Virus record (IMG/VR): IMGVR_UViG_3300044825_001105
Span: 1 to 31,092 of that record
Reading direction: 5' to 3' (one strand)
Origin: a virus
Length of the DNA: 31,092 nt
Part shown: in pieces, positions 1 to 31,092 of the stretch
How positions within the stretch are numbered: the stretch's first letter is position 1
Layout: each line of letters starts with the position of its first letter
Made by a program: the position numbers and the translations under genes
The notes under the pieces: generated by a model
Told to the model about the DNA's origin: nothing
What the model saw: only the letters and a program-made list of their open reading frames with translations
Databases searched by the model: none

Positions 1-127
1 ATAGTAACAAATGTGGACTTAACAAATCCTGAAATGTATAGAGTGCCTGAAGGAAAGGTAATCACTACACCAAAATCAAATAAAATATGAAAAAGACTAT
101 AGAATTAAAAGTGCCAAAGGATTGGTC
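1..127. repeat. Terminal overlap, first copy (circular contig)
   Basis: These 127 bases are identical to the last 127 bases of the window (30966-31092). An exact overlap of 127 bp equals a common assembler k-mer size, so it most likely shows that the contig closes into a circle rather than a true packaged terminal repeat. The unit genome would then be 30,965 bp. Confidence 0.93.
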
Positions 128-740
128 AGCAATAACATTAAGGGAGTATCTAGCTCTCCGTAAGGATATGGATACATACAAAGATAATGAAGAAGCAGTA
201 ATGGCTGCCATCCTACATCACCTTTGCAAATTCCCAGTAGAGTATGTACAACAAATGGATATAGATACATTCTTAGCTGTGAAAAGAGATGTTGCATCAT
301 TTTTTAATAATGTAGAATTACCACTAAAAAGATTTGTAACTATAAATGGATTAGAATTTGGATTTGAACCTAATCTATCACAAATGGCATATGGTGCTTA
401 TGTGGATATATCAAAATACGAAACAATTGGTATAGATGATAAATGGGCCGAAATAATGAGTATCTTATATAGACCTGTGATAAGTAAGATGGGTTCTCTA
501 TATGATATTAAACCTTATGATGGTGTACATAATTCAGAATATTTCTTAGATGTGACAATGGATATACATTGGGGAGCACTTTTTTTTTTCAAAGATTTAT
601 TGACGGACTTACAAAATTATACCCTGAAATATTTGACGGAGGAATTAGCGGGGATGCACTTGCCCCCGATGCTCAAGCAAATTTTGGAAGAAAATGGAAA
701 GGCTACTCAAGCATTCTCCAATTGGCAGGTGAAGATATAA
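87..740 (+). CDS. Tail assembly chaperone-like protein, frame-0 product
   Basis: A 217-residue protein starting at an ATG that overlaps the stop of the preceding coiled-coil gene (ATGA), so the two are translationally coupled. Residues 1-165 look like a conserved N-terminal domain of marine phage proteins (KVP-x-W-x-x-ITLREYLAL near residue 8, GFEPNLSQMAYGAY near residue 93). At codons 165-168 the gene enters a run of ten T (580-589). Frame 0 continues for about 50 further residues to a stop at 740, while the -1 frame stays open to 868. This arrangement resembles the short and long products of tail assembly chaperone genes of long-tailed phages. The role is inferred from architecture and family resemblance. 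The gene is unusual in not lying directly next to the tape-measure gene. Less likely, it is a single gene broken by a homopolymer error. Confidence 0.6.
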   Translation: MKKTIELKVPKDWSAITLREYLALRKDMDTYKDNEEAVMAAILHHLCKFPVEYVQQMDIDTFLAVKRDVASFFNNVELPLKRFVTINGLEFGFEPNLSQMAYGAYVDISKYETIGIDDKWAEIMSILYRPVISKMGSLYDIKPYDGVHNSEYFLDVTMDIHWGALFFFKDLLTDLQNYTLKYLTEELAGMHLPPMLKQILEENGKATQAFSNWQVKI

Positions 741-868
741 CAAAAATAGATTCGGTAGTAAAAGAACCATTGGAAAAATGTTTACTATTCTTATCATATC
801 AAGCAGATAAGCATCAGTTAGAAGAATTAGTACATAGGGCGGCAATGAAAAGAGCAGGAGCCCGATAA
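569..868 (+). CDS. -1 frame extension of the tail chaperone-like gene
   Basis: This frame overlaps the end of the 87-740 gene. Its own ATG at 569 lies inside the conserved region of the upstream frame, so translation through a -1 shift at the T10 run is more likely than independent initiation. After the slip it encodes about 92 residues. The part from FGRKWKGYSSI to the C-terminus has the W/F-x(3)-Y-S-x-I, LAGEDI and PLEKCLLFLSY pattern that I associate with the C-terminal part of T4 gp26-like and related phage chaperone or hub-assembly proteins. It ends in a basic tail (KRAGAR). That both frames between 590 and 740 look protein-like supports true dual coding. Confidence 0.55.
   Translation: MGSTFFFQRFIDGLTKLYPEIFDGGISGDALAPDAQANFGRKWKGYSSILQLAGEDITKIDSVVKEPLEKCLLFLSYQADKHQLEELVHRAAMKRAGAR
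579..590 (+). other. Candidate -1 ribosomal frameshift site (T10 run)
   Basis: In frame 0 the codons read CTT TTT TTT TTC. Slippage by -1 re-pairs perfectly on the T run and joins the frame-0 N-terminal domain to the open frame ending at 868. The long product would be about 260 residues. I did not identify a stimulatory hairpin or pseudoknot with confidence. Confidence 0.55.
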
Positions 869-1355: not shown

Positions 1356-4300
1356 ATGTCTCAATTAAATAAAACACAATTAGAGAATGTAAACCAAACA
1401 AACTTTCCGAATAATAATACACAATTTATTACGCCGGAAAAGTTAAGAGAATTTAATACTGATATTATTGACAGTATGGCATTGCAAAGCGATTTGAATG
1501 CCGTATCACAATCTCTTAGTTCATCGGTTGACAATCTTCAAAATCAAATAGATAGCATTATTGTAAGTGGAGCTAATCTTATTATAAAAGATGAAGGCCA
1601 AACATTAGGTGTTGCTTCAACTATTGATTTTGTTGGTGGTATTGTAAACGCAACACTAACAAATTCAACTGCAACTATTACTATTAGTACAGCTACATTA
1701 GCAACAACAGGTTCTAATACATTTGAAGGAAATCAAACAATCAATGGAGATTTAGATGTTAATGGTACATTTACAGCTTCTCTAACTGAAGGATATGCGT
1801 GGATAGGTGGAAGTGGAAATACACCAATCTTAGTTCCAACAGGTTCTTTTATTGCAATTGGTACATCTGGCACAGCAGGTACAGCAGGCACATCAGGAAC
1901 TGCTGGCACAGCTGGTTCATCAGGTTCAGCAGGTTCTTCTGGTACTAGCGCAACTGCTGGTAGTGGTGGAACATCTGGCACAAATGGAACTGGCGGAAGT
2001 AGTGGCTCGTCCGGTTCAGCTGGAACAAGCGGCAGTTCAGGAAGTTCAGGCACATCGGGTTCGTCTGGCACATCAGCAACAGCAGGTTCAGGCGGTACAT
2101 CAGGAACGAGCGCCACTGCAGGAAGTGGTGGCTCATCAGGCACATCTGGAAGCGGAGGTAGTAGTGGCACGTCAGGAAGTGGTGGCACTAGCGGCACATC
2201 AGGTAGTGGTGGAAGCAGCGGAACATCTGGCAGCGGTGGTAGTTCTGGTTCAGCTGGCAGTAGTGGAAGTTCAGGTTCAGCGGGAACAAGCGGCTCAGGC
2301 GGCACTTCAGGTACTTCAGCAACTGCGGGAAGTGGTGGCACATCTGGTACAAGTGGTACGGGCGGCAGTAGTGGAAGCTCCGGCTCATCTGGAAGCGCAG
2401 GCTCGTCAGGTACAACAGGAAGTAATGGTAGTAGCGGAAGCAGTGGGTCATCAGGCACAAGCGGCACAAACGGTACAACTGGCACAGCCGGTACTTCAGG
2501 CACAAATGCAAGTGCAGGAACATCTGGTACATCAGGTACAACTGGTTCAGCAGGCACATCAGGTTTTAATGGACAAGCAAGTGGTAGAGTATATTACTTC
2601 AATGGTAGTGTAACAGCTTCTATCTCAGGTTCAACTTTTAACGAATTAGGAGTGCAACCTGTTGTTGGTGGAACAATCATTGTATCTCAATCACTTTCAG
2701 GCTCTGGTGTAGCGCAAGTAATAGATAGATACCTTACTGACCCATTAGGGTTTGATTTAATACCTGGTGGATTACAAACATTCCACTTTAATATGTTGAA
2801 ACCTGCAGCTAATGATAATATTCAAGCGCAGGTAAGTCTTCAATTAGCAGATACATTTGGTACACCATCTGGTTCTATTATAACTTCATCATTCTTTGAG
2901 ATTGGATGGAATGGACCTACAACACCTGATTCAGTAATATTAGATTTTGTATTCCCAACAACTACAATCAATTCATCTTCAAGAATGATTGTGGACGTAT
3001 TTGCTAAAAATAATGATGCATCTCCTAAAGAAATAAAATTCTATACTGAAGGTGACCAATATTCATTTGTTGTAACATCAGTAGGATTTAATAATGGTAC
3101 ATCAGGTACTTCAGGTACTGGTGGTACGAGTGGCACATCCGCAACTGCAGGAAGTGGTGGCACGTCTGGTACAAATGGAAGCGCCGGCACATCTGGCAGT
3201 AGTGGAAGTACAGGTTCAGCAGGAACGTCTGGCACGGATGGTGCTCCTGGCTCATCAGGGACTTCAGGAACAAGCGGGACTGCTGGAAGTGGAGGAACAT
3301 CAGGTACAAACGGAAGCGCTGGTTCTAGCGGCATCTCTGGAAGTTCTGGAAGCTCAGGAAGCAGTGGCACAACAGGCAGTTCTGGCAGTTCAGGAAGCGG
3401 AGGCTCTTCGGGAACAAGCGGCAGTGGTGGAAGTTCAGGAACAAGCGGCAGTGGTGGGAGCTCAGGTACTAGTGGCAGTGGCGGTAGTAGTGGAACTGCT
3501 GGGTCAGCTGGAACATCTGGCACTAACGCAAGTGCTGGTACATCAGGAACATCTGCAACAGCAGGAGCAGGATTTCCATTTACAGGTTCTGCACAAATAA
3601 CTGGTTCTTTAGGAATAACTGGTTCTATTTCTTTTACGGGTGTAAATTATTATAGAAGCGGTAGTAATAGTGGCTCCTTTGTTGACAACGCAACTGATTC
3701 ATTTACTGATATAGCTAGAGTAGAACATATTGTAACATTAACATCAGCTTCTTTATCTACATTAATTACAGCAGGAACAACTGACCCAAATACTTTATAT
3801 ATCGTAACCGGTTCATCATTCGCATCAGGTACAAGCGGAACATCAGGTACTTCGGCTGTTGGTTCAGCAGGTACATCTGGCACAAATGGTTCAGCAGGCA
3901 CATCAGGTACTAATGCAAGTGCTGGTACATCCGGTACTTCAGCAACGGCTGGTGCAGGATTTCCATTTACAGGTTCTGCACAAATTACAGGCTCATTGGG
4001 AATTACCGGTTCATTAACATTCTTATCAGGTTCATTCTCAGGTTCAGCAATTACAAACTTAGGTGATACATTTACTGATGTAGCAACTGCTTTAAGAGTA
4101 ATTACATTAAGTTCATCATCTTATGCATCACTATCACCAAAAGACCCTAATACATTATATTTTGTTAGTGGTAGCGGAATAAACGGAACGTCTGGTACAA
4201 GCGGAACAATATTTCCTTACACAGGTTCTGCAGAAATTACTGGTTCTTTAATAATTACAGGTTCTGCTAGAGGTAATGTAGTATCAGCAAGTATTGCTTC

Positions 4301-4589
4301 AGCAACAGCTTCTTTAGATTTCTCAGCAGGAGATTATTACACTTGTTTGGTAAGTGGTAATATGTTTTTTAATATTACAAATGTAAGACCAGGAGAAGTT
4401 GCAAATCTTTTACTAACTGTTGGACAAAATTCACCAACAAACGCAACAGCATCATTTAGTAGTAATGTAAGACAAGTAAGTGGAAGCCGTTATATACCTA
4501 CATCTGGAAGTGGAAGACAGGATATATTAACTTTTGTTTCATTTGATAGTACTAATGTGTATTTAGCTAAAATAAATGATTTAAGATAA
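1356..4589 (+). CDS. Collagen-like tail fibre protein
   Basis: A 1077-residue fibre. Residues 1-60 form a polar N-terminal region with an ITPEKLREFN segment, likely for attachment, followed by a short heptad-like stretch (S-L-S-S-S-V-D-N-L-Q). Three Gly-X-Y tracts follow, at about residues 169-409, 581-738 and 825-868, built almost only of G, S, T, A and N with very little proline. Between the first two tracts lies a globular domain of about 170 residues. After the second and third tracts a module beginning FPFTGSAQITGSLGITGS occurs twice and a shorter variant a third time. The C-terminal 120 residues look like a beta-rich tip. A trimeric fibre used for host binding is the expected role, by analogy with phage collagen-like fibres. 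The tracts use many synonymous codons, so the DNA is less repetitive than the protein. Confidence 0.85.
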   Translation: MSQLNKTQLENVNQTNFPNNNTQFITPEKLREFNTDIIDSMALQSDLNAVSQSLSSSVDNLQNQIDSIIVSGANLIIKDEGQTLGVASTIDFVGGIVNATLTNSTATITISTATLATTGSNTFEGNQTINGDLDVNGTFTASLTEGYAWIGGSGNTPILVPTGSFIAIGTSGTAGTAGTSGTAGTAGSSGSAGSSGTSATAGSGGTSGTNGTGGSSGSSGSAGTSGSSGSSGTSGSSGTSATAGSGGTSGTSATAGSGGSSGTSGSGGSSGTSGSGGTSGTSGSGGSSGTSGSGGSSGSAGSSGSSGSAGTSGSGGTSGTSATAGSGGTSGTSGTGGSSGSSGSSGSAGSSGTTGSNGSSGSSGSSGTSGTNGTTGTAGTSGTNASAGTSGTSGTTGSAGTSGFNGQASGRVYYFNGSVTASISGSTFNELGVQPVVGGTIIVSQSLSGSGVAQVIDRYLTDPLGFDLIPGGLQTFHFNMLKPAANDNIQAQVSLQLADTFGTPSGSIITSSFFEIGWNGPTTPDSVILDFVFPTTTINSSSRMIVDVFAKNNDASPKEIKFYTEGDQYSFVVTSVGFNNGTSGTSGTGGTSGTSATAGSGGTSGTNGSAGTSGSSGSTGSAGTSGTDGAPGSSGTSGTSGTAGSGGTSGTNGSAGSSGISGSSGSSGSSGTTGSSGSSGSGGSSGTSGSGGSSGTSGSGGSSGTSGSGGSSGTAGSAGTSGTNASAGTSGTSATAGAGFPFTGSAQITGSLGITGSISFTGVNYYRSGSNSGSFVDNATDSFTDIARVEHIVTLTSASLSTLITAGTTDPNTLYIVTGSSFASGTSGTSGTSAVGSAGTSGTNGSAGTSGTNASAGTSGTSATAGAGFPFTGSAQITGSLGITGSLTFLSGSFSGSAITNLGDTFTDVATALRVITLSSSSYASLSPKDPNTLYFVSGSGINGTSGTSGTIFPYTGSAEITGSLIITGSARGNVVSASIASATASLDFSAGDYYTCLVSGNMFFNITNVRPGEVANLLLTVGQNSPTNATASFSSNVRQVSGSRYIPTSGSGRQDILTFVSFDSTNVYLAKINDLR
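1860..2583 (+). repeat. Gly-X-Y (GTSG-type) coding repeat 1
   Basis: About 240 residues of G-T-S, G-S-S, G-T-A and G-G-T triplets in the fibre gene. At DNA level it is a degenerate 9-bp-like periodicity. It also opens long spurious reading frames rich in Pro and Val on the opposite strand. Confidence 0.9.
3096..3572 (+). repeat. Gly-X-Y (GTSG-type) coding repeat 2
   Basis: About 158 residues of the same composition. It holds one of the few prolines (GAPG). It ends in ATAGAGFPFTG, the start of a repeated module. Confidence 0.9.
3828..3956 (+). repeat. Gly-X-Y (GTSG-type) coding repeat 3
   Basis: A short tract of about 44 residues ending in the same ATAGAGFPFTG junction as tract 2. Tract plus downstream module therefore appears to have been duplicated as a unit. 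Confidence 0.85.
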
Positions 4590-9094: not shown

Positions 9095-10051
9095 ATGAGA
9101 AAGCAACAAAATTTCGCACAACCATCATTCACTCAGAACACTTACGCTGGTGAATTTGCTGGTAAGTACATTGCTGCAGCGTTATTATCAGCTAAGACAT
9201 TGGATAACCAATACATCACAATCATGCCGAATGTGAAGTATAAAAGTGTAATCCAATCAATAGCAGTTGATTCAATCGTAAACGATGCATCTTGTAACTT
9301 TACTACTTCTGGTACTGTAGCTCTTTCTGAGAGAATCTTAGAACCAAAAGAACTTCAAGTAAACCTTGAATTATGTAAGCAAGAATTTGTTGATTCTTGG
9401 GAAGCACTTCAATTGGGCTTTAGCGCATTTGATGAAATTCCTAAAGATTTCAACGATTTCTTAATCAGCTATGTAGCTGGTAAAGTAGCACAAGCTACTG
9501 AAGAATCAATTTGGAGAGGTAACTCAGCTACCAACGGTCAATTCGGTGGTATCTATACAGCTCTTTCTTCTTCAGTTGTAGCTGGTGGTACAAACGCTCC
9601 TGTAACTTCATCTGTTTCAGGTTCTATCACTTCTGCAAACGTATTAACTGCATTAAACGCATTAGTTGATGCAATTCCTCAAACTGTATACGGTAAAGAA
9701 GATGTAATGATTTATGTACCAACTAACGTAGTTAAGGCTTATCAACAAGCTTTAGCAGGTGGCGCTCAAGGTGCTAATGGTTGGAACAACCAATTGAACG
9801 TAGGAGAGAAGCCATTGAACTTCAATGGTATTGAATTAGCATTCTGTCCTGGTCTTGCTTCTTCAGCTATGGTAGCAGCTCAAAAATCAAACTTGTATTT
9901 CGGTACTGGTTTATTGAGTGACCATAATGAAGTAAGAGTATTGGATATGGCTAACTTAGATGGTTCTCAAAACTACAGAATCATTATGAGATACACAGCT
10001 GGTACTCAATATGGTATCGGTAATGACATCGCTATCCATAAGAACTATTAA
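9095..10051 (+). CDS. Major capsid protein
   Basis: A 318-residue protein of the HK97-fold type. It has the N-terminal aromatic/Gly-rich arm (AGEFAGKYIAAALLSA), the LEPKELQVNLELCKQEFVDS segment, a long acidic helix ending in ATEESIWRGN, then VMIYVPTNVVKAYQQAL and a C-terminal NYRIIMRYTAGTQYG part. The order and length fit capsid proteins of Bacteroidota siphophages. Codon choice is more C-ending than in neighbouring genes (for example AAC, ATC), as is common for highly expressed genes. It lacks an N-terminal delta domain, in keeping with a separate scaffold gene upstream. Confidence 0.85.
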   Translation: MRKQQNFAQPSFTQNTYAGEFAGKYIAAALLSAKTLDNQYITIMPNVKYKSVIQSIAVDSIVNDASCNFTTSGTVALSERILEPKELQVNLELCKQEFVDSWEALQLGFSAFDEIPKDFNDFLISYVAGKVAQATEESIWRGNSATNGQFGGIYTALSSSVVAGGTNAPVTSSVSGSITSANVLTALNALVDAIPQTVYGKEDVMIYVPTNVVKAYQQALAGGAQGANGWNNQLNVGEKPLNFNGIELAFCPGLASSAMVAAQKSNLYFGTGLLSDHNEVRVLDMANLDGSQNYRIIMRYTAGTQYGIGNDIAIHKNY

Positions 10052-10058
10052 TATATTT

Positions 10059-10096
10059 GAGTGAATAATGAGAGGGTGAAATTCCCTCTCTCACTC
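10059..10096 (+). terminator. Two-part RNA hairpin after capsid gene
   Basis: GAGAGGG (10070-10076) pairs with CCCTCTC (10084-10090) around loop TGAAATT. An outer helix GAGTGA/TCACTC extends it past a one-sided ATAAT bulge. No T-tract follows, so it is more likely a 3' mRNA-stabilising or partial attenuation element than a full intrinsic terminator. Confidence 0.6.
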
Positions 10097-10100
10097 TTAA

Positions 10101-10110
10101 TATGTTAAAA
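10101..10110 (+). promoter_or_regulatory. Weak TTGTTAAA-like motif, tail tube gene
   Basis: TATGTTAAAA directly after the post-capsid hairpin and 42 nt before the tail tube ATG. It matches GTTAAAA but has ATG in place of TTG, so it is the weakest member of the motif set. Confidence 0.25.
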
Positions 10111-10142
10111 CAAAAACAAATTAACTTAAAAAACTCAAACGT

Positions 10143-10694
10143 ATGTCTTGTAATTTAACACTAGGTAGAAATGAACCTTGTAAAGATTCGGTAGGTGGTA
10201 TAGCTTCAGTATTTTTCTGTAACTATACGGGTTCTTTTGGTACATCAAATGCAGCTAATGCAGATGCACTTTTAGAATCATTACCTTCTGGCTTAACAGT
10301 GTATCAATATGACCTAAAAGGAAATTCTAGCTATACTGAAACTGTAAACTCATCTCGTGATAATGGTACAACTTTCTTCAACCAAGAATTAGTTCTTAAC
10401 TTGAAGAAATTAACTAACGAAATGACAACTCAATTAAAGTTGATGGCTTATGGTAGACCTCAAATCTTTATCCACACAATGGCAGGTGATACTCTATTGG
10501 TAGGACAAAGAGAAGGTGCAGATGTAACAGGTGGTACTATTCAGACTGGTGCAGCATTAGGTGACCTTTATGGTTATTCTATTACTTTCACTGGACAAGA
10601 ACAATTCCCAGCTCCATTCATCTCTGGTTCTACTTATGGTAATCCATTTGGTGCAGTAACTAATCCGCCAACAATTGTTGTAGGAACTAACTAA
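10143..10694 (+). CDS. Major tail tube protein
   Basis: A 183-residue protein. It carries the segments CKDSVGGI near the N-terminus, YQYDLKGNSSYTETVNSS, NGTTFFNQELVLNLKKL, and DVTGGTIQTGAALGDLYGY near residue 140, then FTGQEQ. These match, in order, the tail tube (major tail) protein pattern of Bacteroidota siphophages. It is flanked by a hairpin after the capsid gene and a strong terminator after its own stop, so it can be expressed as a separate high-level transcript. Confidence 0.75.
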   Translation: MSCNLTLGRNEPCKDSVGGIASVFFCNYTGSFGTSNAANADALLESLPSGLTVYQYDLKGNSSYTETVNSSRDNGTTFFNQELVLNLKKLTNEMTTQLKLMAYGRPQIFIHTMAGDTLLVGQREGADVTGGTIQTGAALGDLYGYSITFTGQEQFPAPFISGSTYGNPFGAVTNPPTIVVGTN

Positions 10695-10716
10695 TCAGTA
10701 TAGATAAGAAATAATT

Positions 10717-10747
10717 AAGGGTGGCTATAAAGTCACCCTTTTTTTAT
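10717..10747 (+). terminator. Intrinsic terminator after tail tube gene
   Basis: AAGGGTGGC (10717-10725) pairs with GTCACCCTT (10732-10740) with one G-T pair, loop TATAAA, followed by a T-tract. It separates the tail tube gene from the portal unit. Confidence 0.88.
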
Positions 10748-10771
10748 TTTATCACTATTTGTGCTTCTAAA

Positions 10772-10782
10772 ATTGTTAAAAT
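10772..10782 (+). promoter_or_regulatory. ATTGTTAAA motif, portal operon
   Basis: ATTGTTAAAAT follows the terminator and lies 38 nt (from TTG) before the ATG at 10811. A start signal is needed here because the terminator cuts off upstream transcription, which makes this the best-supported promoter candidate of the set. Confidence 0.5.
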
Positions 10783-10810
10783 ATAAACGTAAAGACAAGC
10801 TAAATACATC

Positions 10811-11185
10811 ATGCTAACATTTATAACATCAGGAAGTAATATTTGGACACTGAGAGTACAACCCACAGGCAGTTCTAATCTTACTTTGTATTTGCAAGAT
10901 ATGACAACATTAGAGAATTATTCAGCATCTCTATCAAATTATAATTACGATGCGTATGAATCTAAGTTATCATTTACATCTTCACAGGTAACTACTTTAG
11001 TATCATCTTCAGTAGGAACACAATATAGAGCTTATATTTCTGATACTACGTGTTCAATATGGCATGGAAGTGTTTCAGTATTTACTTCTCAATCACTTAA
11101 TAAATCTGGCTATGTTAATCAGATACCATTGGAAAATGTGTACATAAGCAGAGTATCAGATAATGAATATATAATTTTAGACTAA
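10811..11185 (+). CDS. Hypothetical virion-associated protein
   Basis: A 124-residue beta-rich protein with many Ser, Thr and Tyr residues, no cysteine pair and no membrane segment. It ends one base before the portal gene and is the first gene after the terminator and ATTGTTAAA motif. A small head or neck structural role is likely from context. I do not recognise the family. Confidence 0.6.
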   Translation: MLTFITSGSNIWTLRVQPTGSSNLTLYLQDMTTLENYSASLSNYNYDAYESKLSFTSSQVTTLVSSSVGTQYRAYISDTTCSIWHGSVSVFTSQSLNKSGYVNQIPLENVYISRVSDNEYIILD

Positions 11186-11186
11186 T

Positions 11187-12476
11187 ATGAAATTAAATCA
11201 AAATTTTTCGGTTGTAAACATGGCACAGCAAGAAATCCCAGTTATTACTGAGGATACAAAAACAAGGTATCAATGGGTACCTGTTGGTATTATTGGACCT
11301 GATGATTTCTTCTCAAATGTAACCGATGCTTACAATAATTCTACTACAAATGCAGCTTGTATAGAAGGAATTGCGGACTTAATCTATGGTAAAGGTGTAT
11401 TTAGTAAAAATCAATCTTTTGTAGAAACATTAGGTAAGATACTTCCGCAAGAGGAAATTAAAAGAGCAATATTTGACCTAAAATTATATGGTAATGCTGT
11501 AATACAGGTATACTGGGATGATTCTCATACTAAGATTATAAAAATGTATCACGCACCTGTACAAAACTTCAGAGCAGAAAAATTATACAATGAACCGAAA
11601 ATCCAAAACTTCTATTATTGCACAGATTGGAGTGACCATAAAGCGCAGAGATATAAGAAAAAAATACCTGCGTTCGGTACTTCAAAAGATAAGATGGAAC
11701 TCCTATGGATTAAAAACTATTCGCCAGGCAAATACTATTACTCGTTGCCTGATTGGATTCCTGCTTTACAATTCTCTTTTGTAGAGGCTGAATTATCTAA
11801 CTTACACTTAAACAACATTGAGAATGGTTTCTTACCATTAGTGATGTTGAATATGAACAATGGTATTCCAGCGCCTGAAGAAAGAGATACAATTGAAGAT
11901 TTAGTAGAAGCTAAATTTACAGGCACTAGAAATGCTGGACGTTTTATTATCACATTTAACGATGACCCAGAAAGAAAACCAACTATTGATACAATCCAAA
12001 CTGATAATCTGCATGATAAAACAAAGTATGTTGCAGAATATGCACAGGATAGAATCTTAGTTGCACATAGAGTAACATCTCCACTTCTTTTTGGTATTCG
12101 TACTGTAGCTAATGGATTTAGTTCACAATCAGAAGAAATGAAAACAGCTTACTCAATTCTTCAAACAATGACAATTACTCCGTTCCAAAACTTAGTTATT
12201 AACTTCTTAGCAGATGCGTTTGATAAAGGTGGATACCCTGATTCACAATTATACTTTGAACAATTAACACCATTAGTAATTCTTTCACAAACTGCAGAAG
12301 AAACTGGTCAAACAACTGAGCAAGTTCAAGAACAAATTAATGAACAGGCTGAAAATCCTGCGGAGATTGAAGAAAATCCATCAGCAATTGATATTGATAT
12401 TAATAATGAACAATTAAGTGATTTCAAAAGAAGTAATCCTAATTTTTCAAAAAACTTTGTAACATATAAATTATAA
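11187..12476 (+). CDS. Portal protein
   Basis: A 429-residue protein, the dodecameric ring through which DNA enters and leaves the head. It contains a FDLKLYGNAVIQVYWDD core segment near residue 96, followed by MYHAPVQNFRAE and LPDWIPALQ, typical of small portal proteins of Bacteroidota phages. The region YAQDRILVAHRVTSPLLFG near residue 290, with FSSQSEEMKTAYSIL after it, fits the long wing/crown helices. The last 50 residues are acidic and low-complexity. The ATG at 11187 lies two bases after the previous stop; an internal ATG at 11220 is an alternative start. Confidence 0.85.
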   Translation: MKLNQNFSVVNMAQQEIPVITEDTKTRYQWVPVGIIGPDDFFSNVTDAYNNSTTNAACIEGIADLIYGKGVFSKNQSFVETLGKILPQEEIKRAIFDLKLYGNAVIQVYWDDSHTKIIKMYHAPVQNFRAEKLYNEPKIQNFYYCTDWSDHKAQRYKKKIPAFGTSKDKMELLWIKNYSPGKYYYSLPDWIPALQFSFVEAELSNLHLNNIENGFLPLVMLNMNNGIPAPEERDTIEDLVEAKFTGTRNAGRFIITFNDDPERKPTIDTIQTDNLHDKTKYVAEYAQDRILVAHRVTSPLLFGIRTVANGFSSQSEEMKTAYSILQTMTITPFQNLVINFLADAFDKGGYPDSQLYFEQLTPLVILSQTAEETGQTTEQVQEQINEQAENPAEIEENPSAIDIDINNEQLSDFKRSNPNFSKNFVTYKL

Positions 12477-12483
12477 ACCAATT

Positions 12484-13002
12484 ATGGCATACGCTTTATT
12501 CATAACAAGAAACGATATAATCAAAAATACTCCACTTCAAGGTTCAATTGATGCGGATAGGTTATTGAATTTTGTGAGAACAGCACAAGATAAATACATT
12601 CTTAATTTAGTAGGAACTGTACTATTTGATTATCTCCAAGCTCAAATTGAAGCTGGTACTTTTAATCAATTAAATGTATATTATCAAGACTTAATGAATG
12701 ACCACATCAAACCAACTCTTATTTGGTATGCTGTTGTAGAATATTTACCGTTTAGTGGTGTCCAATTCAAATCTGAAGGCGCTGTAAAACATGAAACGGA
12801 GACCGCTAAATCGGTAACTAAGAATGAAGTAGATTATCTTCTTCAAAAAGCTATGAATAATGCTGATTACTACGCAACTCGTTTACAAAATTATTTGATT
12901 TCTTATTCTAATCAGATACCACAATACTACGAATCAGTAGGTAATCAAACACAAATTTATCCTGATATGGGTAATGCTTATTTTGGTGGAATAAATTTAT
13001 AA
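12484..13002 (+). CDS. Head-tail connector (neck adaptor)
   Basis: A 172-residue, mainly helical protein directly after the portal. The pattern ITRNDIIKNTPLQGSIDADRL then TAQDKYILNLVGTVLFDYL resembles the DUF6712-type gp6-like adaptor found in Bacteroidota phages that sits under the portal. Assignment is by position and pattern. Confidence 0.65.
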   Translation: MAYALFITRNDIIKNTPLQGSIDADRLLNFVRTAQDKYILNLVGTVLFDYLQAQIEAGTFNQLNVYYQDLMNDHIKPTLIWYAVVEYLPFSGVQFKSEGAVKHETETAKSVTKNEVDYLLQKAMNNADYYATRLQNYLISYSNQIPQYYESVGNQTQIYPDMGNAYFGGINL

Positions 13003-13006
13003 TATA

Positions 13007-13567
13007 ATGGGAGCAACAATAGTAAATAACATTGGTACAAATTATGTACTTTATTACAATATACTCAATTATTTCAAAACAATAATGAGTAATCATCCAA
13101 GTATTCAAAGAGTAACTTATGGTGATAATTGGGGATTAGATGATGATGAGTTTCCACAATATCCTTTGGGAAATGTATTCATTTCTAACGCTAGATTTGA
13201 TAATAAAGTACTCAATTATACAGTTCAACTTACTATTGCCGATAAAGTTAAGTTAAAAAATAATGAAAGTGTTGGTAGTTCAAATAGTGAAACAATTCCA
13301 TTCTTTGGAACTGATGATACTGTTGATATTCATGCTAATACATTATCAATCTTAAATGACCTTCTTTCATTTACAAGATTAGGAACTGAAGCATTTACTA
13401 TTGTAACTACTATGAATGCAGTACCATTTAAGAACGAATTTCCAAATGCTTTAGCAGGTTGGGTTTGTACATTTGATTTAGAAGTATTTAATGACCAAGA
13501 CATTTGTTTATATCCTAACTTATTGGGTAGTCCATTAAATATTAAAGGTGTACAAACTGATTGTTAA
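13007..13567 (+). CDS. Neck / tail completion protein
   Basis: A 186-residue protein. The N-terminal helix (LYYNILNYFKTIMSNHPSI), followed by PLGNVFISNARFDNKVLNYTVQLTIADKV, fits the tail terminator/completion proteins that cap the tail tube at the neck. It lies between the connector and the gp10-like protein, as expected. Its stop overlaps the start of the next gene (TAATG). Confidence 0.6.
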   Translation: MGATIVNNIGTNYVLYYNILNYFKTIMSNHPSIQRVTYGDNWGLDDDEFPQYPLGNVFISNARFDNKVLNYTVQLTIADKVKLKNNESVGSSNSETIPFFGTDDTVDIHANTLSILNDLLSFTRLGTEAFTIVTTMNAVPFKNEFPNALAGWVCTFDLEVFNDQDICLYPNLLGSPLNIKGVQTDC

Positions 13568-13959
13568 TGGCTAGAATTCCTACTTTACAAGATGTTGCAA
13601 GTGTATATCAAACACAAGCAAAAGCATTAGCTCCTGTTAAGACTGGAGCAATGAGAGATAGAATTAAAGTATCTTATAAGAAATTATCTGATTTCAAATA
13701 TTCTTTTGACCTAACCTCATTACCTTACATTATTTGGTGGAACGCACCTACAATAAGTAGAACTGTCAAAAATGCTCAAACTGGTAATGCTGACAAAATA
13801 AACTTTGTTTACAAGGCTGCAAATTCACAACCTGTAAGGGATATAATAAGAGAATATCAAGTTAAAGGTATTATTGAAACTGAAGTTCTAAAAGGAATGA
13901 GAGAATATTTTGATAAAGATGGATATGGAAAATTGAAGCAAGTTTACCGCAAAAAGTAA
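13567..13959 (+). CDS. HK97 gp10-like neck protein
   Basis: A 130-residue protein. I use the ATG at 13567, which overlaps the previous stop, rather than the TTG at 13561. The motif ALAPVKTGAMRDRIKV near residue 20 is the hallmark of gp10-like head-tail joining proteins. The rest is basic with an aromatic segment (YIIWWNAP). Confidence 0.68.
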   Translation: MARIPTLQDVASVYQTQAKALAPVKTGAMRDRIKVSYKKLSDFKYSFDLTSLPYIIWWNAPTISRTVKNAQTGNADKINFVYKAANSQPVRDIIREYQVKGIIETEVLKGMREYFDKDGYGKLKQVYRKK

Positions 13960-13983
13960 ACTTCCAATATATAATACCATTTT

Positions 13984-13994
13984 TTTGTTAAAAT
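13984..13994 (+). promoter_or_regulatory. TTGTTAAA motif, distal tail operon
   Basis: TTTGTTAAAAT in the 50-bp gap, with TTG 25 nt before the ATG at 14010. Confidence 0.42.
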
Positions 13995-14009
13995 AGAAAA
14001 CATTTAAGA

Positions 14010-15197
14010 ATGTCATTGTCTATAACACAAACGCCGGCAACCTGTTCATTGGCTCAGTCACCTACAATATTTACAGCGTATGAGACTGGAGATGTTGTAT
14101 TATCATCTTCATTTCAATATTATTTAGACCTGTATTATTGGAGTGGTACACCAAATCAATCAGGTTCTGTAGCAAATTATACACTGGTAAAATATCCAAA
14201 CGCAAGTAGAGTTGGTATATTTGATGTTGGTAGAATTCTTAATTCAGCATTAACTGGTTCAGCTGAAGGTACACCATCAAATGTAAAATATTTCAAAGCA
14301 GATGTTTATTGGAGATACCTTTCAGGTTCTAACGCAATACCAACTACTGGTTCGCATGTAGAAAGTTCAAATTATAAAGCTTTAGATGGTTATGCAATAT
14401 TTGATGAACCAATAGGTCAACAAATACAAAATAAAACACCATACTGGCCTATAATGACTGATGGACCTGTTTCTCAATCGTGTTTATTTGAAGATGTAGG
14501 TAAAATGAGTGTTTATATTGGTGAGTATGCGGCAGGAGTATTTCCTAGCCGAATTGTTTACTCAGGTTCATTAGGTATAAATGGAAGTATTTCTATAAGT
14601 GGTAGCGCAGCTTCAACAATATCTTCTTCACAGCAAATACAATTATTTCCAATAGGCCCATCTGACCCACAATTTCCTGTTGGGTTAATAACAGGAGCTG
14701 AACAATCGTTTACTGTACAAGCTTTTGATGGAACTACACCTATTAGTAATAAAATTAATTTTAATGTTGTTTGTAAGCAAAAATATCCAAACATAAGAAT
14801 TAAATGGAAGAATAGATACGGACAATTTGATTTCTTCTCATTTTATATGGTAAATCGTCAGTCATTTAGTACAACTAAAAGAGGTTATCAACCACAATTA
14901 GGAACATGGACTGCACCAACATTAACATATACACAATACGATAGTTCTAACTTAAATTATATTGTAGATTCTAAACAGTCTATAAGTGTTAATACTGATT
15001 GGATAGATGAAGATTATAATGAAATAATAAAACAATTGCTTGTTTCTGAAGAAATATATTGGGTAAAAAGTTCTACTGACCTTTTACCACTTACAATTAA
15101 TACAGAAAGTATTACATTCAAAACAGGCGTAGTAGATAAAGTAATTCAATACCAATTTGATTTTGATTTCGGACAAGGATATAAATTAATTCTATAA
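14010..15197 (+). CDS. Distal tail structural protein
   Basis: A 395-residue beta-rich protein. The start MSLSITQTPATCSLAQSPTI matches a conserved start of tail proteins in Bacteroidota siphophages as I remember them. The final third (RIKWKNRYGQFDFFSFYM, then IDEDYNEIIKQLLVSEEIYW) looks like a conserved domain. It overlaps the next gene by one base (TAATG), so the two are coupled. A baseplate or distal tail role is inferred from this pairing and the tape measure downstream. Confidence 0.6.
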   Translation: MSLSITQTPATCSLAQSPTIFTAYETGDVVLSSSFQYYLDLYYWSGTPNQSGSVANYTLVKYPNASRVGIFDVGRILNSALTGSAEGTPSNVKYFKADVYWRYLSGSNAIPTTGSHVESSNYKALDGYAIFDEPIGQQIQNKTPYWPIMTDGPVSQSCLFEDVGKMSVYIGEYAAGVFPSRIVYSGSLGINGSISISGSAASTISSSQQIQLFPIGPSDPQFPVGLITGAEQSFTVQAFDGTTPISNKINFNVVCKQKYPNIRIKWKNRYGQFDFFSFYMVNRQSFSTTKRGYQPQLGTWTAPTLTYTQYDSSNLNYIVDSKQSISVNTDWIDEDYNEIIKQLLVSEEIYWVKSSTDLLPLTINTESITFKTGVVDKVIQYQFDFDFGQGYKLIL

Positions 15198-17236
15198 TGG
15201 GAGTTTTAAGTACACAAGGAATACAGTTTCAGTTAGTAGCAAATGATATAATCTTAGACCTATTCAAAGATGAAGATATTTTATTATCAGATAATGTTAC
15301 AGGCCTTTTTGATCTTGGTGTTATCCCAGCCGATTTTACAAGGCAGATTACGTTACCTGGGACGAAAAAGAACAATGCTTTTTTTGAGCATGTTTATGAT
15401 ATTAGTATTCAGTCTCCTGATACATTTGCAACTAACATTAAAGTTCCATGCTATTTAGATTTTGGTGGAGTTTATCTTTCGCAAGGATATTTACAACTAA
15501 ATCAGGTAAATATTTTTGAGAATAAATTTATTGATTCTTATGAAGTTACTATATTTGGTGCTATATCTTCGTTTGCAAGAGAAATTAATAGAAGTTTTTT
15601 AACTGACTTAAATTCATTAAGTATATACAATCACACAGCTTCTTATCAAAATATAACTGGAAGTTGGGAGAATAAATTATTTTCAGGTTCAATTGTTTAT
15701 CCATTTGCAGAATATGGACAAAAGATAGAATTCACTCCCGAAGAAGCAGAATTTGGTATAGATGCTGAATCTGATGGTATGTGTGTACAAGATTATAAAC
15801 CAGCTATAAAAGCAAAATTAGTTTGGGATGCTATTTTTAATGAAGCTGGTTACAATTATTCTTCTTCATTTATAGATAATGGTGGATTAGATAATATCTA
15901 TCTTCTATGTAATCGTTCATTAAGATACCCATTATTTTCAGAAGCAAATTTAGAAACATTTGGTTTATTTAAGATACAACCAATATCAGGTTCTGGTCAA
16001 ACAAATTGGCAACCATCTGCTGGTTCTGACCACCCTCTACCTTGGTACAATGTTACAAAAAATACAGGTGGACAAATGGGTGGTAATTTGATTTATTCAT
16101 TACCATATTCTTCATCATTAAGAGGTAATATTAATTTGAATGTTGAAATAAGTGGTAGCGCAAATGCAGGTGGTTTAGGTAAAGTTCCTAATTTTACATT
16201 AAGAATAAAAAATGTAGATACAAATACATTTACTGATGTAACTCTAAATTCAATTAACAATTATTTTTTAGAAGTTCAAGAATATAACGGAAATGATGGT
16301 ACAAAAAGACAAAAAACTGAAGTTGGACAAAAATGGAATAGTCCATTATTAGGTTCTGGTTCTTATGAATTTGATATTAAATGGTTGAAAACAAATGATG
16401 GTAATGGTGATGTAGTTATTACTTTAGAACCTGATAATCAAATAAAATCTTATTTAGAAGTTACAAAAGTAGCACAATTAGGTGATGGTTGGGTAATGAA
16501 TATTCCAGCTAACATGCCATTTGGAACTAATGGAATTAAACAAATTGATTTTTTAACTTCTATACAAAAGAAATTCAATTTAGTAATGTATCCATCTAAA
16601 GTAGTTAGAAATCAAATGGTTGTAGAGCCTTTTAATAGTTGGTATAAAAGTGGTAGAAGATGGGATTTTAATAAATACATTAATCTAAATGATAAAATAG
16701 AAATAATTCCAGCAAATAATTTAGCTGTGAATGAATTAAACTTTGGTGACCTATTAGACCAAGATTATATTTCACAACAATTTAGTAAAGAAGCAAATAG
16801 AGAATATGGAAAGCAATATTATGTTGATACTGAAAATTTCTTTTCACAAGGTACTCTAAATGTAAAAACATCAGTTGCTTCAACACCTTTACTACAATTA
16901 GCAAATACAGGCGTATCTGGTTCAGTTAGTGGATTAAACCCTGGCGGTGGTGGAAACGTAACAGTATTTTATTTAGGTGGTGGATTTAGAATATCCCCTT
17001 ATGGTGAAACAGCTGCTTGTAGGTCATTTACATTTACCGAATTATATTCTACCACTGGTGATTTATCTAATGGTTCTATACTTTATTATGATGCTAATGG
17101 TAGCCAATTAGTAACAGGAATTATTACCTTAGTAGACCCTAATTGTGATATTTATGAAGTTAATGCAGCAACTGGAGAAATAGTTCAATATACAGGAATA
17201 ACTTGTGTAAGTGTTCCTAGAGGGATTTGTTTATAA
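15197..17236 (+). CDS. Large distal tail / baseplate protein
   Basis: A 679-residue protein. The N-terminus (IQFQLVANDIILDLFKDEDI, ADFTRQITLPGTKKN) is typical of the large baseplate-like proteins of Bacteroidota siphophages. Middle segments include CVQDYKPAIKAKLVWDAIFN and GIKQIDFLTSIQKKFNLVMY. The region after about residue 575 is different: Gly-rich, then Cys-containing (ETAACRS, DPNCD, TCVSVPRGICL). The part that usually closes this family, NPRTRLLNASAIIPL onwards, is in the next gene, so the ancestral protein may have been split. Confidence 0.62.
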   Translation: MGVLSTQGIQFQLVANDIILDLFKDEDILLSDNVTGLFDLGVIPADFTRQITLPGTKKNNAFFEHVYDISIQSPDTFATNIKVPCYLDFGGVYLSQGYLQLNQVNIFENKFIDSYEVTIFGAISSFAREINRSFLTDLNSLSIYNHTASYQNITGSWENKLFSGSIVYPFAEYGQKIEFTPEEAEFGIDAESDGMCVQDYKPAIKAKLVWDAIFNEAGYNYSSSFIDNGGLDNIYLLCNRSLRYPLFSEANLETFGLFKIQPISGSGQTNWQPSAGSDHPLPWYNVTKNTGGQMGGNLIYSLPYSSSLRGNINLNVEISGSANAGGLGKVPNFTLRIKNVDTNTFTDVTLNSINNYFLEVQEYNGNDGTKRQKTEVGQKWNSPLLGSGSYEFDIKWLKTNDGNGDVVITLEPDNQIKSYLEVTKVAQLGDGWVMNIPANMPFGTNGIKQIDFLTSIQKKFNLVMYPSKVVRNQMVVEPFNSWYKSGRRWDFNKYINLNDKIEIIPANNLAVNELNFGDLLDQDYISQQFSKEANREYGKQYYVDTENFFSQGTLNVKTSVASTPLLQLANTGVSGSVSGLNPGGGGNVTVFYLGGGFRISPYGETAACRSFTFTELYSTTGDLSNGSILYYDANGSQLVTGIITLVDPNCDIYEVNAATGEIVQYTGITCVSVPRGICL

Positions 17237-17247
17237 AATTTTATATT

Positions 17248-17802
17248 ATGCCACAATTAGGAGGAAATCAAAAAATACCAATCTACATACCAACCTATAT
17301 AGGTGATGCAACTTATGCGCCAGCAAGAGTTCAACCAAGATTACTATATTACAATGGTATATTAGATTGTGAAGATTATTATATTAATGGATTTAATAAT
17401 CATACTGCATCAGCTTTTACGTTAGATAAAAAACCTTTAGATACATTTCCTTATTTTGATAATTACAACGTTGTATCAGGCTCATTTCCTACAACTGGTT
17501 CTAAATCCCTTTTATTTTATAATGAACAACCTGCTTATGGAATTGCACCGACAGCATCTTTATATTCTACATATTGGAGTGATTATGTAAATCTACTTTA
17601 TAATCCAAGAACTAGATTATTAAATGCTTCAGCAATTATTCCCTTAGCTGATTATTTTGATATGGAATTGAATGACATAGTTGAATTTAGAGGAAATCAA
17701 TATCATTTGAGAGCAATTAATGATTATAATCTAAATACAGGTGAGTGTAAAATACAACTATTGGGCCCTATTTTAGAGGGTTCATTAAATGTAGGTTCAT
17801 AA
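17248..17802 (+). CDS. Baseplate protein, C-terminal part as separate gene
   Basis: A 184-residue protein. The ATG at 17248 is preferred over a TTG at 17227 that overlaps the previous gene. Segments YWSDYVNLLYNPRTRLLNAS and NDIVEFRGNQYHLRAIND, then LNTGECKIQLLGP, correspond to what I remember as the C-terminal end of large baseplate proteins in related phages. Here it stands alone, in the same direction and 11 nt behind the 679-residue protein. Confidence 0.6.
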   Translation: MPQLGGNQKIPIYIPTYIGDATYAPARVQPRLLYYNGILDCEDYYINGFNNHTASAFTLDKKPLDTFPYFDNYNVVSGSFPTTGSKSLLFYNEQPAYGIAPTASLYSTYWSDYVNLLYNPRTRLLNASAIIPLADYFDMELNDIVEFRGNQYHLRAINDYNLNTGECKIQLLGPILEGSLNVGS

Positions 17803-17815
17803 ATGTTATATTTGT

Positions 17816-17959
17816 ATGATAAGAGATATTATAGACCTTTTACAAACAAGCGAATATTATGGAGTATCTCCTAAAGTTTCATTTGCTAAAGGTAGTAGAA
17901 AAATTCCTTATAATTGGAAACAATTAAAACAATTAATAAAACGATTGTGGCATGGCTGA
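17816..17959 (+). CDS. Small basic protein before tape measure
   Basis: A 47-residue reading frame filling the gap before the tape-measure gene and overlapping its start by 8 bases (CATGGCTGA). The protein is basic and helical: MIRDIIDLLQTSEYYG, then SFAKGSRKIPYNWKQLKQLI. Coding is supported by the tight overlap and by protein-like composition. Tail assembly genes usually sit here, so a small chaperone-like role is possible. Confidence 0.5.
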   Translation: MIRDIIDLLQTSEYYGVSPKVSFAKGSRKIPYNWKQLKQLIKRLWHG

Positions 17960-20375
17960 AAATGTAACAACATATGAAGTAGTAGTAGATACTAAAGTTG
18001 AAGGTACTGATAAATTACAACAGGCCGGCTCAGCTGCAGAATCAGCTGGTGGACAATTCCAACGTCTACAAACTCAGATTAGAGAAACTCAAAAACAATT
18101 ACAGGCAGCAGCAGAAGCAGGTGATAAAGCTAAGTTTAACCAATTAAAAGGACAGTTAAATGATTTGCAAGATAAATTAGAAGTAACTCAAAAACGTTCT
18201 TTAGAATTCAAAGATGCTCTTGCAGCAGCACCTGGTCCAGTTGGTAATGTTGGTAAAGCATTACAAGGTTTAGATGCTACATTCAAATCATTTCTTGCTA
18301 ATCCTATCGTTTTAACTCTCGCAGCAATTGTAGGAGCATTTGTTTCTCTTAAAGAAGCATTAAGTAGAACTGAAGAAGGACAAGCTAAATTAAATAAAAT
18401 ATCTGAAGGATTTACAAAGATTCTAAATGGTTTATTTGCAATCATAGAACCTGTAGCTAATATGTTTGCTGACCTGATTATCTCTTTAATGGAGAATAAA
18501 TCAGTAATGGAAGGTCTTTCAGTAGCAGCTGGTGGATTAAGTGCAGCTTTCCAAGTTGTATTCAATGTAGGTAAACAATTAGTAGGATTTATTATTAATA
18601 ATTTTGTAAATGCTTTCAAAACACTTGTAGATGTTGCAGGTGGGGCTGGTAAAGTATTAAAAGGTGTATTTACATTTGATTTTGACCTAATTAAAGAAGG
18701 TGTAGCACAAGTTGGTGATGGAATTAAAAAAGGATTTAATGCAACGGTTGAGAATGTAAAAAGTACTGCAAAAGGAATTGGTGAAGGAATTCAAAATGGT
18801 ATAAAAGATGGATTTACAAGTGGGCAGAAAGCATTTAACGAAGGTACAAAAAGATTAACTGAAGCTGAAAAGAAAGCATTAGAAGAAAGAAATAAGAAAG
18901 CAGCAGAAGCAGCTAAGAAAAGAGCAGAGCAAGAAAAGAAAGATGCAGATGATAGAAAAAAAGCAATTGAAGAAGCTGGTAAAGTAGAAACTGAAGCATA
19001 TCTTTCAACACTTTCACAAAGAGACCAAGAAATATTCAAAAGAGGTCAGAAATTAAATGAAGATTTAGAAAAATTAGAAAGAGCAAGAGTTGCAGCAGTT
19101 AAAGAAGCACAATTAAAAGGTGTAACAGATTTTTCATCAATAGATGACCAATATAAAAGTGCTAGAGTTAATGCACAACAGGCATATAAGAATGATGAGG
19201 CTGCAATTAATAAAAAGTTTGATGAAGAAGAAGCTAAGAAAGCAGAAGAGAAAGCATTAAGAGAAAAAGAATTATCTCAAAAAGCATTTGATGAATTTAA
19301 GTTTTCTCAAGAGAATAGATTACAAGAATTAAATAACCGATATAATAGAGAGATTGCTTTAGTAAATGCACAAGAACAATTATTACTTTGTGCTGAAGGT
19401 TTATGTACTAAAGATAAAGAGAATATTATAGCTGATGCTAATCAAAAAAGAGTTGATTTAGAAAGAAAGAAATATGAAGATATTCTTGCACTTATCAATG
19501 AAGAAGAAAAAAGAGCATTAGAAGTTGTTGGATTAACTGAAGAACAAAAAACAAGAATATTCTTAGATGCTGAAGCTAAGAGACAAGCAATTAGACAACA
19601 ACAAAGAGATGATGTTGTATTAGGATTAGAAACTGAATTAGCTAATATTGGAACTTCATTTGATAGAAGAAGGGAATTAGTAGCACAAAAAGAAGCTGAG
19701 TTATTATCACAAGAAAATCTTACTGAAAATCAAAGAACTGCCATAAAACAACAGGCCGCTCAAGAGAGAATGGCCATTGATATGGAAGAATTAGACCAAA
19801 GAGCTGAAATACAAAATGCTTATTTGGATTTGGTTGGACAGTTTGGTAATTTATTACAACAAATCGCTGGTAAGAATAAGAAAGTAGCAATTGCTGGTAT
19901 TATTATAGAACAGGCAGCAGCTATTGGTAGAATTATAGCAAATACAGCAGTAGCAAACGCAAAAGCAGTAGCAACATTCCCTATAACTGCAGGTCAACCT
20001 TGGGTTACAATTAACACAATTTCTGCGGCATTAGGTATAGCATCAACAATAGCAAGTGCAGCTAAATCAATACAACAAATTAATTCTGCAGGAAATAGTA
20101 CTTCAGCGCCAGCTAGTACAGGTAGCACAGCTGGATTAAGAAGTGCTTCAGCACCAGCTGGTATAGCACCAACAGCACCTGGTGTAGGTGGTGGAATGGC
20201 AGTACCACAAATTATTGGTACAAGGGAAGCAACACCTGGAGCACAAATTGCACAAACTCTTTCTATGAGAACTGGACAACCAATCCGAGCTTATGTAGTT
20301 AGTGGGGATATAACTTCACAACAGGCTTTAGACCGCAGAACAAATAGGGCTGCAACTTTTAGTAGTGGTGGATAA
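17952..20375 (+). CDS. Tail tape measure protein
   Basis: An 807-residue protein that sets tail length and moves into the cell envelope at infection. Residues 20-90 are Gln/Ala-rich coiled coil. Residues 115-215 carry several hydrophobic helices (IVLTLAAIVGAFVSLKEAL, LFAIIEPVANMFADLIISLM). Residues 290-620 are a long charged coiled coil (EAEKKALEERNKKAAEAAKK and similar). Another hydrophobic stretch (KVAIAGIIIEQAAAIGRII) and an Ala/Ser/Pro-rich C-terminus follow. By the usual 0.15 nm per residue rule the tail would be about 120 nm long, which fits a siphovirus. Confidence 0.88.
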   Translation: MAENVTTYEVVVDTKVEGTDKLQQAGSAAESAGGQFQRLQTQIRETQKQLQAAAEAGDKAKFNQLKGQLNDLQDKLEVTQKRSLEFKDALAAAPGPVGNVGKALQGLDATFKSFLANPIVLTLAAIVGAFVSLKEALSRTEEGQAKLNKISEGFTKILNGLFAIIEPVANMFADLIISLMENKSVMEGLSVAAGGLSAAFQVVFNVGKQLVGFIINNFVNAFKTLVDVAGGAGKVLKGVFTFDFDLIKEGVAQVGDGIKKGFNATVENVKSTAKGIGEGIQNGIKDGFTSGQKAFNEGTKRLTEAEKKALEERNKKAAEAAKKRAEQEKKDADDRKKAIEEAGKVETEAYLSTLSQRDQEIFKRGQKLNEDLEKLERARVAAVKEAQLKGVTDFSSIDDQYKSARVNAQQAYKNDEAAINKKFDEEEAKKAEEKALREKELSQKAFDEFKFSQENRLQELNNRYNREIALVNAQEQLLLCAEGLCTKDKENIIADANQKRVDLERKKYEDILALINEEEKRALEVVGLTEEQKTRIFLDAEAKRQAIRQQQRDDVVLGLETELANIGTSFDRRRELVAQKEAELLSQENLTENQRTAIKQQAAQERMAIDMEELDQRAEIQNAYLDLVGQFGNLLQQIAGKNKKVAIAGIIIEQAAAIGRIIANTAVANAKAVATFPITAGQPWVTINTISAALGIASTIASAAKSIQQINSAGNSTSAPASTGSTAGLRSASAPAGIAPTAPGVGGGMAVPQIIGTREATPGAQIAQTLSMRTGQPIRAYVVSGDITSQQALDRRTNRAATFSSGG

Positions 20376-29276: not shown

Positions 29277-29582
29277 ATGGCAAAGTTTGAACCTGGACAT
29301 AAATTAGCTAAGGGTAGACCTAAAGGAGCACTGAATCGTTCAACTGAAATGATGAAGTTATCAATAGCTCGTGCTACCAATAGAGTATTAGACCAACTTC
29401 CTACAATTATGGAAGAAATGGTGAAGAAGGACCCAAAAGGAGCTGTGGATTTGGCACTGAAGATGTTAGAATTCCACATGCCGAAAATGAGTAGAGTAGA
29501 AATGAAAGCTGAGATAGAACAAAGGATACAGCAGATTTCAGTAAACATAACACAAAAGAGCATAGATGAATCTGGAAGTTAA
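29277..29582 (+). CDS. Terminase small subunit-like protein
   Basis: A 101-residue protein. The start AKFEPGHKLAKGRPKGALNRST is the basic GRPKG region of small DNA-binding terminase partners in Bacteroidota phages (DUF5681-like). A helical body follows (VLDQLPTIMEEMVKKDPKGA, ALKMLEFHMPKM). It overlaps the large terminase gene by 17 bases, which supports the pairing. It should recognise the packaging site. Confidence 0.7.
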   Translation: MAKFEPGHKLAKGRPKGALNRSTEMMKLSIARATNRVLDQLPTIMEEMVKKDPKGAVDLALKMLEFHMPKMSRVEMKAEIEQRIQQISVNITQKSIDESGS

Positions 29583-30729
29583 TACAACCATAACATACCA
29601 AAACCAAAATGATTCACCAACTCGGATAACAATTCATTACGGTGGTACTCGTTCAGGTAAGAGTTATGCATTACTTCAATGGTGTATTGTAAAGTGCTTG
29701 GAAGAAAAGCATGATGTAGTAATAGTAAGAAAAACAATACCAAGCCTGAAAAGAACTATTATTAAAGATTTTGAAGATATAATGAAAGAGCTTGGAATAT
29801 GGAATGATAATGATTTTAATATTACCGATAGAGTATATGAATTCTATACCGGCTCTACAATATCATTCCTAAGTACTGATAACCCTGAGAAGCTGAGAGG
29901 ATTAAAGAGTTCTATTCTATGGTTGGAAGAAGCTAATGAAATAGATGAAGAATCTTATTTTCAGTTAAGAATACGTTGTACAGGTCCTATTATGTTATCC
30001 CTAAACCCTACAATATCACCACACCATTGGATTCGTCAGATAGAAGGTGCTACGGCATACTTTACAACATTCCGTAACAATCCATACCTACCAAAAGATG
30101 TTGTAAATAGTATAAAAGAGCTTGAAAGAACAAATCCAAAAGCATGGAAAGTGTATGGTATGGGTGAGTTTGTGACAAATGATAAAGCCGTATTTGATTT
30201 TAATGTAACCGATTGGGTACCTGATGATGCTGAATTCGTTTGTTTAGGAATAGATTTTGGATATAGTTCAGACCCAACTGCAATCGTTTCCCTGTTCCGA
30301 AAGGATAGAGATATATGGTTTGTAGAGAATTGCTATGAAAGAGGAATGGTGACAAACGATATTGCTTCTAAACTACGAACAATCATTGGAGATAATCGTT
30401 GGGAAATATGGGCAGATAGTGCAGAGCCCCGATTAATAGAAGAATTATACCGATTAGGATTCAATATAAGGCCGGTAGTAAAAGGAAAGGATAGCATTAA
30501 CTTTGGTATCCAAGTACTTCAGAATTACCAAATCAATTTACCACGCACATGCCAAAACTTAGTAAATGAGTTCTATGGATACGAATGGGAAACGGATAGA
30601 TTCGGTAGACAGATGGATAAACCAATAGATTTTAATAATCACCTAATTGATGCAAGTAGATATGCAGCAATGATGAGATTATCGCAAGTAGCAACAGCTA
30701 AAGGAAAATATGTAATCAGAGTAAAATAA
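29566..30729 (+). CDS. terL: Terminase large subunit
   Basis: A 387-residue packaging motor. ATPase: Walker A GGTRSGKS (residues 26-33), Walker B with catalytic acid SILWLEEAN (E121/E122), coupling motif LSLNPTISPHHW near 145. Nuclease: D230 in LGIDFGYSSDPTAI, D284 in IWADSAEP and D362 in NNHLIDASRYA, the three metal-binding acids. It fits the Terminase_3/XtmB-like group. All key residues are present, so it should be active. It forms a unit with the small subunit upstream and the coiled-coil gene six bases downstream. Confidence 0.95.
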   Translation: MNLEVNTTITYQNQNDSPTRITIHYGGTRSGKSYALLQWCIVKCLEEKHDVVIVRKTIPSLKRTIIKDFEDIMKELGIWNDNDFNITDRVYEFYTGSTISFLSTDNPEKLRGLKSSILWLEEANEIDEESYFQLRIRCTGPIMLSLNPTISPHHWIRQIEGATAYFTTFRNNPYLPKDVVNSIKELERTNPKAWKVYGMGEFVTNDKAVFDFNVTDWVPDDAEFVCLGIDFGYSSDPTAIVSLFRKDRDIWFVENCYERGMVTNDIASKLRTIIGDNRWEIWADSAEPRLIEELYRLGFNIRPVVKGKDSINFGIQVLQNYQINLPRTCQNLVNEFYGYEWETDRFGRQMDKPIDFNNHLIDASRYAAMMRLSQVATAKGKYVIRVK

Positions 30730-31055: not shown

Positions 31056-31092
31056 AAAAGACTATAGAATTAAAAGTGCCAAAGGATTGGTC
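30966..31092. repeat. Terminal overlap, second copy
   Basis: Identical to bases 1-127. It contains the 3' part of the coiled-coil gene at 30735 and the first codons of the gene at 87, so it duplicates real coding sequence and carries no separate element. Confidence 0.93.

Follow-up and report, generated by a model that had tools for sequence, protein, structure and literature searches.

Background

The genes of phage tail chaperones usually, but not invariably, lie between the genes of the tail tube and the tape measure. Their frameshift usually comes where the short gene is about to end, so that the short form stops almost at once. In phage lambda, G and GT are the short and the -1-extended forms of one tail protein; the slippery site, GGGAAAG, lies 15 nt before the G stop, and G directly precedes the tape measure gene. 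In phage P2, a -1 shift on T_TTT_TTG joins the short chaperone E to a -1 extension (E+E'). Frame 0 stops 18 nt past this site in P2 and 6-48 nt past it in six P2-like relatives, and E adjoins the tape measure gene. The slip-to-stop distance is used for prediction by the program PRFect, and its mean is 26 nt in the SEA-PHAGES training genes (PMC10885494).

Here we analysed a window of 31,092 nucleotides, the whole of the IMG/VR virus record IMGVR_UViG_3300044825_001105, in which a first, sequence-only reading had pointed to a probable -1 frameshift on a run of ten T residues. As in lambda and P2, a short form would be made along with a -1-extended one, and as in lambda a tape-measure protein is encoded in the same genome. 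The gene differs from both systems in that frame 0 continues for 147 nt past its T_TTT_TTC site, and in that it adjoins the gene of the terminase large subunit (TerL) instead of that of the tape measure. No sequence similarity to lambda G/GT was seen in family searches, and PF10109, the P2 E family, was the best Pfam match, below its cut-off. The sole cultured genus in which we found the gene is Inhavirus. In the Nonlabens phages P12024S/L of this genus, a homologous gene, 26% identical to that of the window, lies beside TerL and carries a T9 run in the same register, as well as a homologous -1 extension. In the annotation of P12024S, genes 38 and 39 stand as two hypothetical genes and no frameshift is given; the frame-0 tail of this phage has only 25 codons, compared with 49 in the window. 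We propose, with a probability of about 0.78, that the gene of the window specifies a tail-assembly chaperone in two forms, made by -1 slippage on the T run.

Methods

Relatives were collected by two scans of viral sequences, both seeded from the part upstream of the T run and therefore not selecting for the run itself. The first scan gave 34 relatives, and a profile scan contributed 80 of at least 562 loci; combined, they amount to 106 loci, some of them repeats of the same contig. The full-locus set (n = 98) includes the window and P12024S. A further scan, seeded from P12024S, gave 63 distant loci, 62 of which were read; one of its seeds (FFYHLGND) lies just past the run, so that this distant set is partly biased towards the motif. 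Synonymous rates were compared over 26 independent pairs. The short form and the -1 extension were modelled separately with AlphaFold.

Results

The frame-0 ORF lies on the plus strand at 87..740 and corresponds to a short form of 217 aa (AlphaFold model pLDDT 85). It meets a T10 run at 580..589, the sole A/T homopolymer of more than 7 bases anywhere in the record. There the frame-0 codons are CTT TTT TTT TTC, which contain T_TTT_TTC (584..590) in frame-0 register as the last in-frame heptamer. Past the shift site, a frame-0 tail of 49 codons (591..737) is followed by the stop at 738..740. For this tail, helices are predicted at residues 158-188 and 194-211, with falling confidence. The -1 frame is open from the T run until the stop at 866-868, and its extension (590..868) consists of 92 aa and a stop; the long form, join(87..590, 590..868), would thus have 260 aa. 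Both frames are coding over 590-737, about 148 nt. The sequence-only reading had placed the run at exactly these positions, and its ends of the two frames (740 and 868) and its estimate of about 150 bases of dual coding agree with the ORF reading. Dinucleotide shuffles give an expectation of about 2 T10 runs per record. The run by itself is therefore not improbable; its conservation is.

A run of T7-T10 in register was present in all 106 loci of the two viral scans, which are about 46-88% identical; in the first scan, identity to the window over the upstream part was about 48-88%. The -1 extension was seen in all but two of them, in which the contig ends before the diagnostic -1 motif, and both frames were kept in every untruncated locus. 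The alignment of homologues that had been proposed as a check thus gave a clear answer: the run and both frames recur in every locus checked, and a single uninterrupted frame was found in none of the 106. Of the 98 full loci, 70 have a T10 run, 26 a T9 run and two (L025 and L026) a T7 run, and these two nevertheless keep the X_XXY_YYZ register and both frames. The heptamer is T_TTT_TTN in all full relatives, its last base being C in 39 loci, T in 28, G in 19 and A in 12; beyond the shift, frame 0 runs for 25-58 codons and the -1 frame for 81-92. The layout was also kept in 62 of the 62 distant loci read, their frame-0 tails being 16-84 codons long and their extensions 80-92, with an overlap of up to 84 of 92 codons. 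The slip-to-stop distance, 147 nt in the window, reaches 252 nt in distant relatives. As expected of a programmed -1 frameshift, the slippery heptamer is conserved in frame-0 register, and the -1 ORF is conserved as a protein and has no start of its own. No relatives were found among the GTDB genomes scanned, and no report of this gene family in the literature searched, which lay mostly outside subscription journals.

In the distant group (L113-L174) the bases that follow the run (tatcatttaggNaacgayt) are near-invariant and conserved in both frames (YHLGNDL and LSFRxRL). To judge from these sequences, they may have an added role at the nucleotide level.

Purifying selection acts on both frames exactly over the overlap. 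Synonymous shuffling of the -1-frame codons gave, for most relatives, a mean open stretch of frame 0 of about 10-25 codons, compared with the 41-61 observed. P values for single sequences ranged from <0.001 to 1, the weak ones arising because the amino acids of those sequences allow few stops. Synonymous differences in the -1 frame amounted to 125/1091 (11.5%) in the overlap, 223/861 (25.9%) beyond it and 780/3687 upstream (Fisher test, overlap vs after p 1.6e-16, overlap vs upstream p 8e-14). When the pairs were aligned on their own frame-0 stop, the rate was 0.07-0.11 across the 50 codons preceding this stop and 0.20-0.28 beyond it. The step, from 0.08 to 0.27, falls at the stop itself, and from there on the -1-frame synonymous sites are freed of the constraint. 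The pair formed by the window and its relative L003 by itself showed 1/47 in the overlap vs 12/36 after it. In the distant group, the corresponding change was 37/1058 (3.5%) in the overlap vs 340/2145 (15.9%) upstream (p 1e-28). Transversions that are silent in the -1 frame and make a frame-0 stop accounted for 0.009 of realised vs 0.130 of possible changes in the overlap, and for 0.082 vs 0.054 after it. Replacements in frame 0 of the overlap had a mean BLOSUM score of -0.60 when realised vs -0.76 when possible, a weak test; the realised replacements are thus scarcely more conservative than those available, and chemical constraint on the short tail seems loose. The earlier impression that both frames are protein-like is thus borne out by synonymous shuffles, synonymous rates and stop avoidance, and the frameshift with its dual coding is, at the level of the sequence, a real feature under selection.

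The window carries an exact terminal repeat of 127 bases (1-127 = 30966-31092); it is probably a whole genome, 30,965 b long, that was assembled as a circle. Because of this repeat the record can be read as a circle, on which the gene follows TerL (29566..30729, plus strand) and a 106-aa ORF; its placement next to the terminase by the sequence-only reading was right. This linkage is conserved: a TerL homologue was matched in 143 of the 143 relatives with enough upstream sequence, and in 141 it lies on the same strand, at most 1.5 kb upstream. The tape-measure protein (17952..20375, plus strand; phrog_1538, E 3e-13), the presumed client, is encoded about 17 kb away, and a candidate tail-tube protein at 10143-10694.

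Several other features of the genome were observed. Directly 3' of the gene are two small Cys-rich ORFs (879-1091 and 1093-1344) with the common pattern GCLC...YS...CC, homologues of which occur in about 80 of the 143 relatives. They are followed at 1356-4589 by a 1077-aa protein with long GTSGTSG-like repeats of the collagen type and three copies of a FPFTGSAQITGSLGITGS-like module. The head and tail gene order in 9095-20375 is unusual, the tape measure coming after long unnamed tail-like genes and not after a tail-tube/chaperone pair. The ORFs at 22527-23375 (minus strand) and 28673-29218 (plus strand) look sigma-factor-like by eye, the former being the sole large minus-strand ORF outside repeat regions.

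Regarding function, a tail-assembly chaperone is the best reading, drawn from sub-threshold profiles, gene content and architecture. In all six frames of the record, PF10109 (Phage_TAC_7) matched this gene only (E 1e-5; 20.8 bits, below the cut-off of 25), and so did phrog_166 (E 4e-6). A search of a viral fold library returned mostly uncharacterised proteins and one named tail assembly chaperone (E 0.039). Comparison with the folds of solved tail chaperones gave short helical pairs only, sequence and fold searches of the PDB found no relevant match to a solved structure, and NCBIfam profiles were uninformative. The genomic layout is that of the lambda G/GT kind, a short and a shifted long form sharing their N-terminus; the position is not, since the gene does not lie between those of the tail tube and the tape measure. 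The suggested link to tail chaperones has thus become the best-supported function through the profiles, the tape measure and the architecture, while hhalign against P2 E and Mu 41 showed no relationship (probability about 1%, with small profiles).

Discussion

Slippage at this site is inferred, as are the rate at which it would occur, its probable ribosomal nature, the function of the protein as a chaperone and the partners it would bind. The majority of ribosomes would keep frame 0 and make the 217-aa protein, with C-terminal helices encoded by 591-737. A minority would slip by -1 on T_TTT_TTC within the T10 run and make the 260-aa protein, which would end in a different, conserved domain of 92 aa. 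By analogy with the roles of the short and long forms in lambda G/GT (PMC5009743), the part common to both forms may bind the tape measure, the -1 domain may recruit the tail-tube protein, and the shift rate may set the ratio of the two. We found no significant fold of an RNA stimulator (z 0.23) and no covarying consensus structure among the relatives, an absence that fits the report that some tailed-phage shifts work without stimulators (PMC5009743).

The same two products would result if the RNA polymerase rather than the ribosome slipped on the T run, an alternative that we hold unlikely but take seriously. Runs of 9-10 T, as found in 96/98 full loci and 62/62 distant ones, exceed the 7 that a ribosome needs, all remaining A/T runs in the window have at most 7, and both kinds of slippage can occur at a single site (PMC5009743). 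However, L025 and L026 keep both frames with only 7 T, and in every full locus the heptamer is in register with frame 0, which polymerase slippage would not need. As these two relatives manage with 7 T and no full locus departs from the codon register, the ribosome is favoured. It is also conceivable, though rather doubtful, that the shift is real and the gene specifies some different factor of the tail or head, as it adjoins TerL in all relatives tested and its best PHROG, phrog_32199, is of no known function. Against this, two tail or tail-chaperone profiles single out the gene at 87-740, a tape measure is present in the genome, and the design of a short and a long form is the hallmark of tail chaperones. 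That the frame-0 tail is non-functional, with an RNA element constraining the overlap and chance keeping frame 0 open, appears improbable. The lack of strong chemical conservation in frame-0 replacements and the conserved nucleotides right after the run in the distant group would be in keeping with it. Yet the constraint stops at the frame-0 stop; in phages with a short tail it is gone by codons 42-51 after the shift (0.466 vs 0.399 in long-tail phages); stop codons are avoided in frame 0, and there is no conserved RNA fold.

We see very little chance that the -1 ORF is a separate gene with an internal start. GenBank annotates P12024S_39 as a gene of its own in P12024S, and the window has a TTG at 569. 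However, neither ATG nor GTG nor TTG occurs in the -1 frame around the shift in 91 of 119 distinct loci, and there is thus no conserved independent start; a TTG at the position matching 569 is found in only 10 of the 119, and the ATG annotated in P12024S would omit the conserved first part of the extension. Finally, homopolymers are error-prone, and a sequencing error, an assembly indel or a decayed gene had to be considered. Such an origin is next to negligible, since the same layout is found in more than 100 contigs with runs of 7, 9 or 10 T, always in register, as well as in an isolate genome, and since selection on both frames speaks against it. With none of the relatives checked having one continuous frame, this reading was rejected.

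The mechanism of two-form chaperone synthesis by -1 slippage is thus of a known kind; what is new is the long selected overlap and the location. The overlap is far longer than in the known cases examined, and the best reading of these sequences is that the short form carries a conserved C-terminus of its own, rather than a stop just past the slip. As a second C-terminus, up to 84 codons long, is maintained by selection over the same bases, a separate job for the short form can now be tested. We find it rather more probable than otherwise that in a widespread phage lineage, almost wholly uncultured, the tail chaperone ends in one or the other of two C-terminal domains, for both of which a single stretch of 75-250 bases codes in two frames, that the short form has a functional tail of its own, and that the two endings co-evolved in one overlap. 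Gene-calling programs divide the long form or overlook it, as in the GenBank entry of P12024S, and PRFect and other distance-based predictors may undervalue sites with long overlaps. With more than 560 relatives in one scan, this gene family provides a large natural data set on the evolution of overlapping frames.
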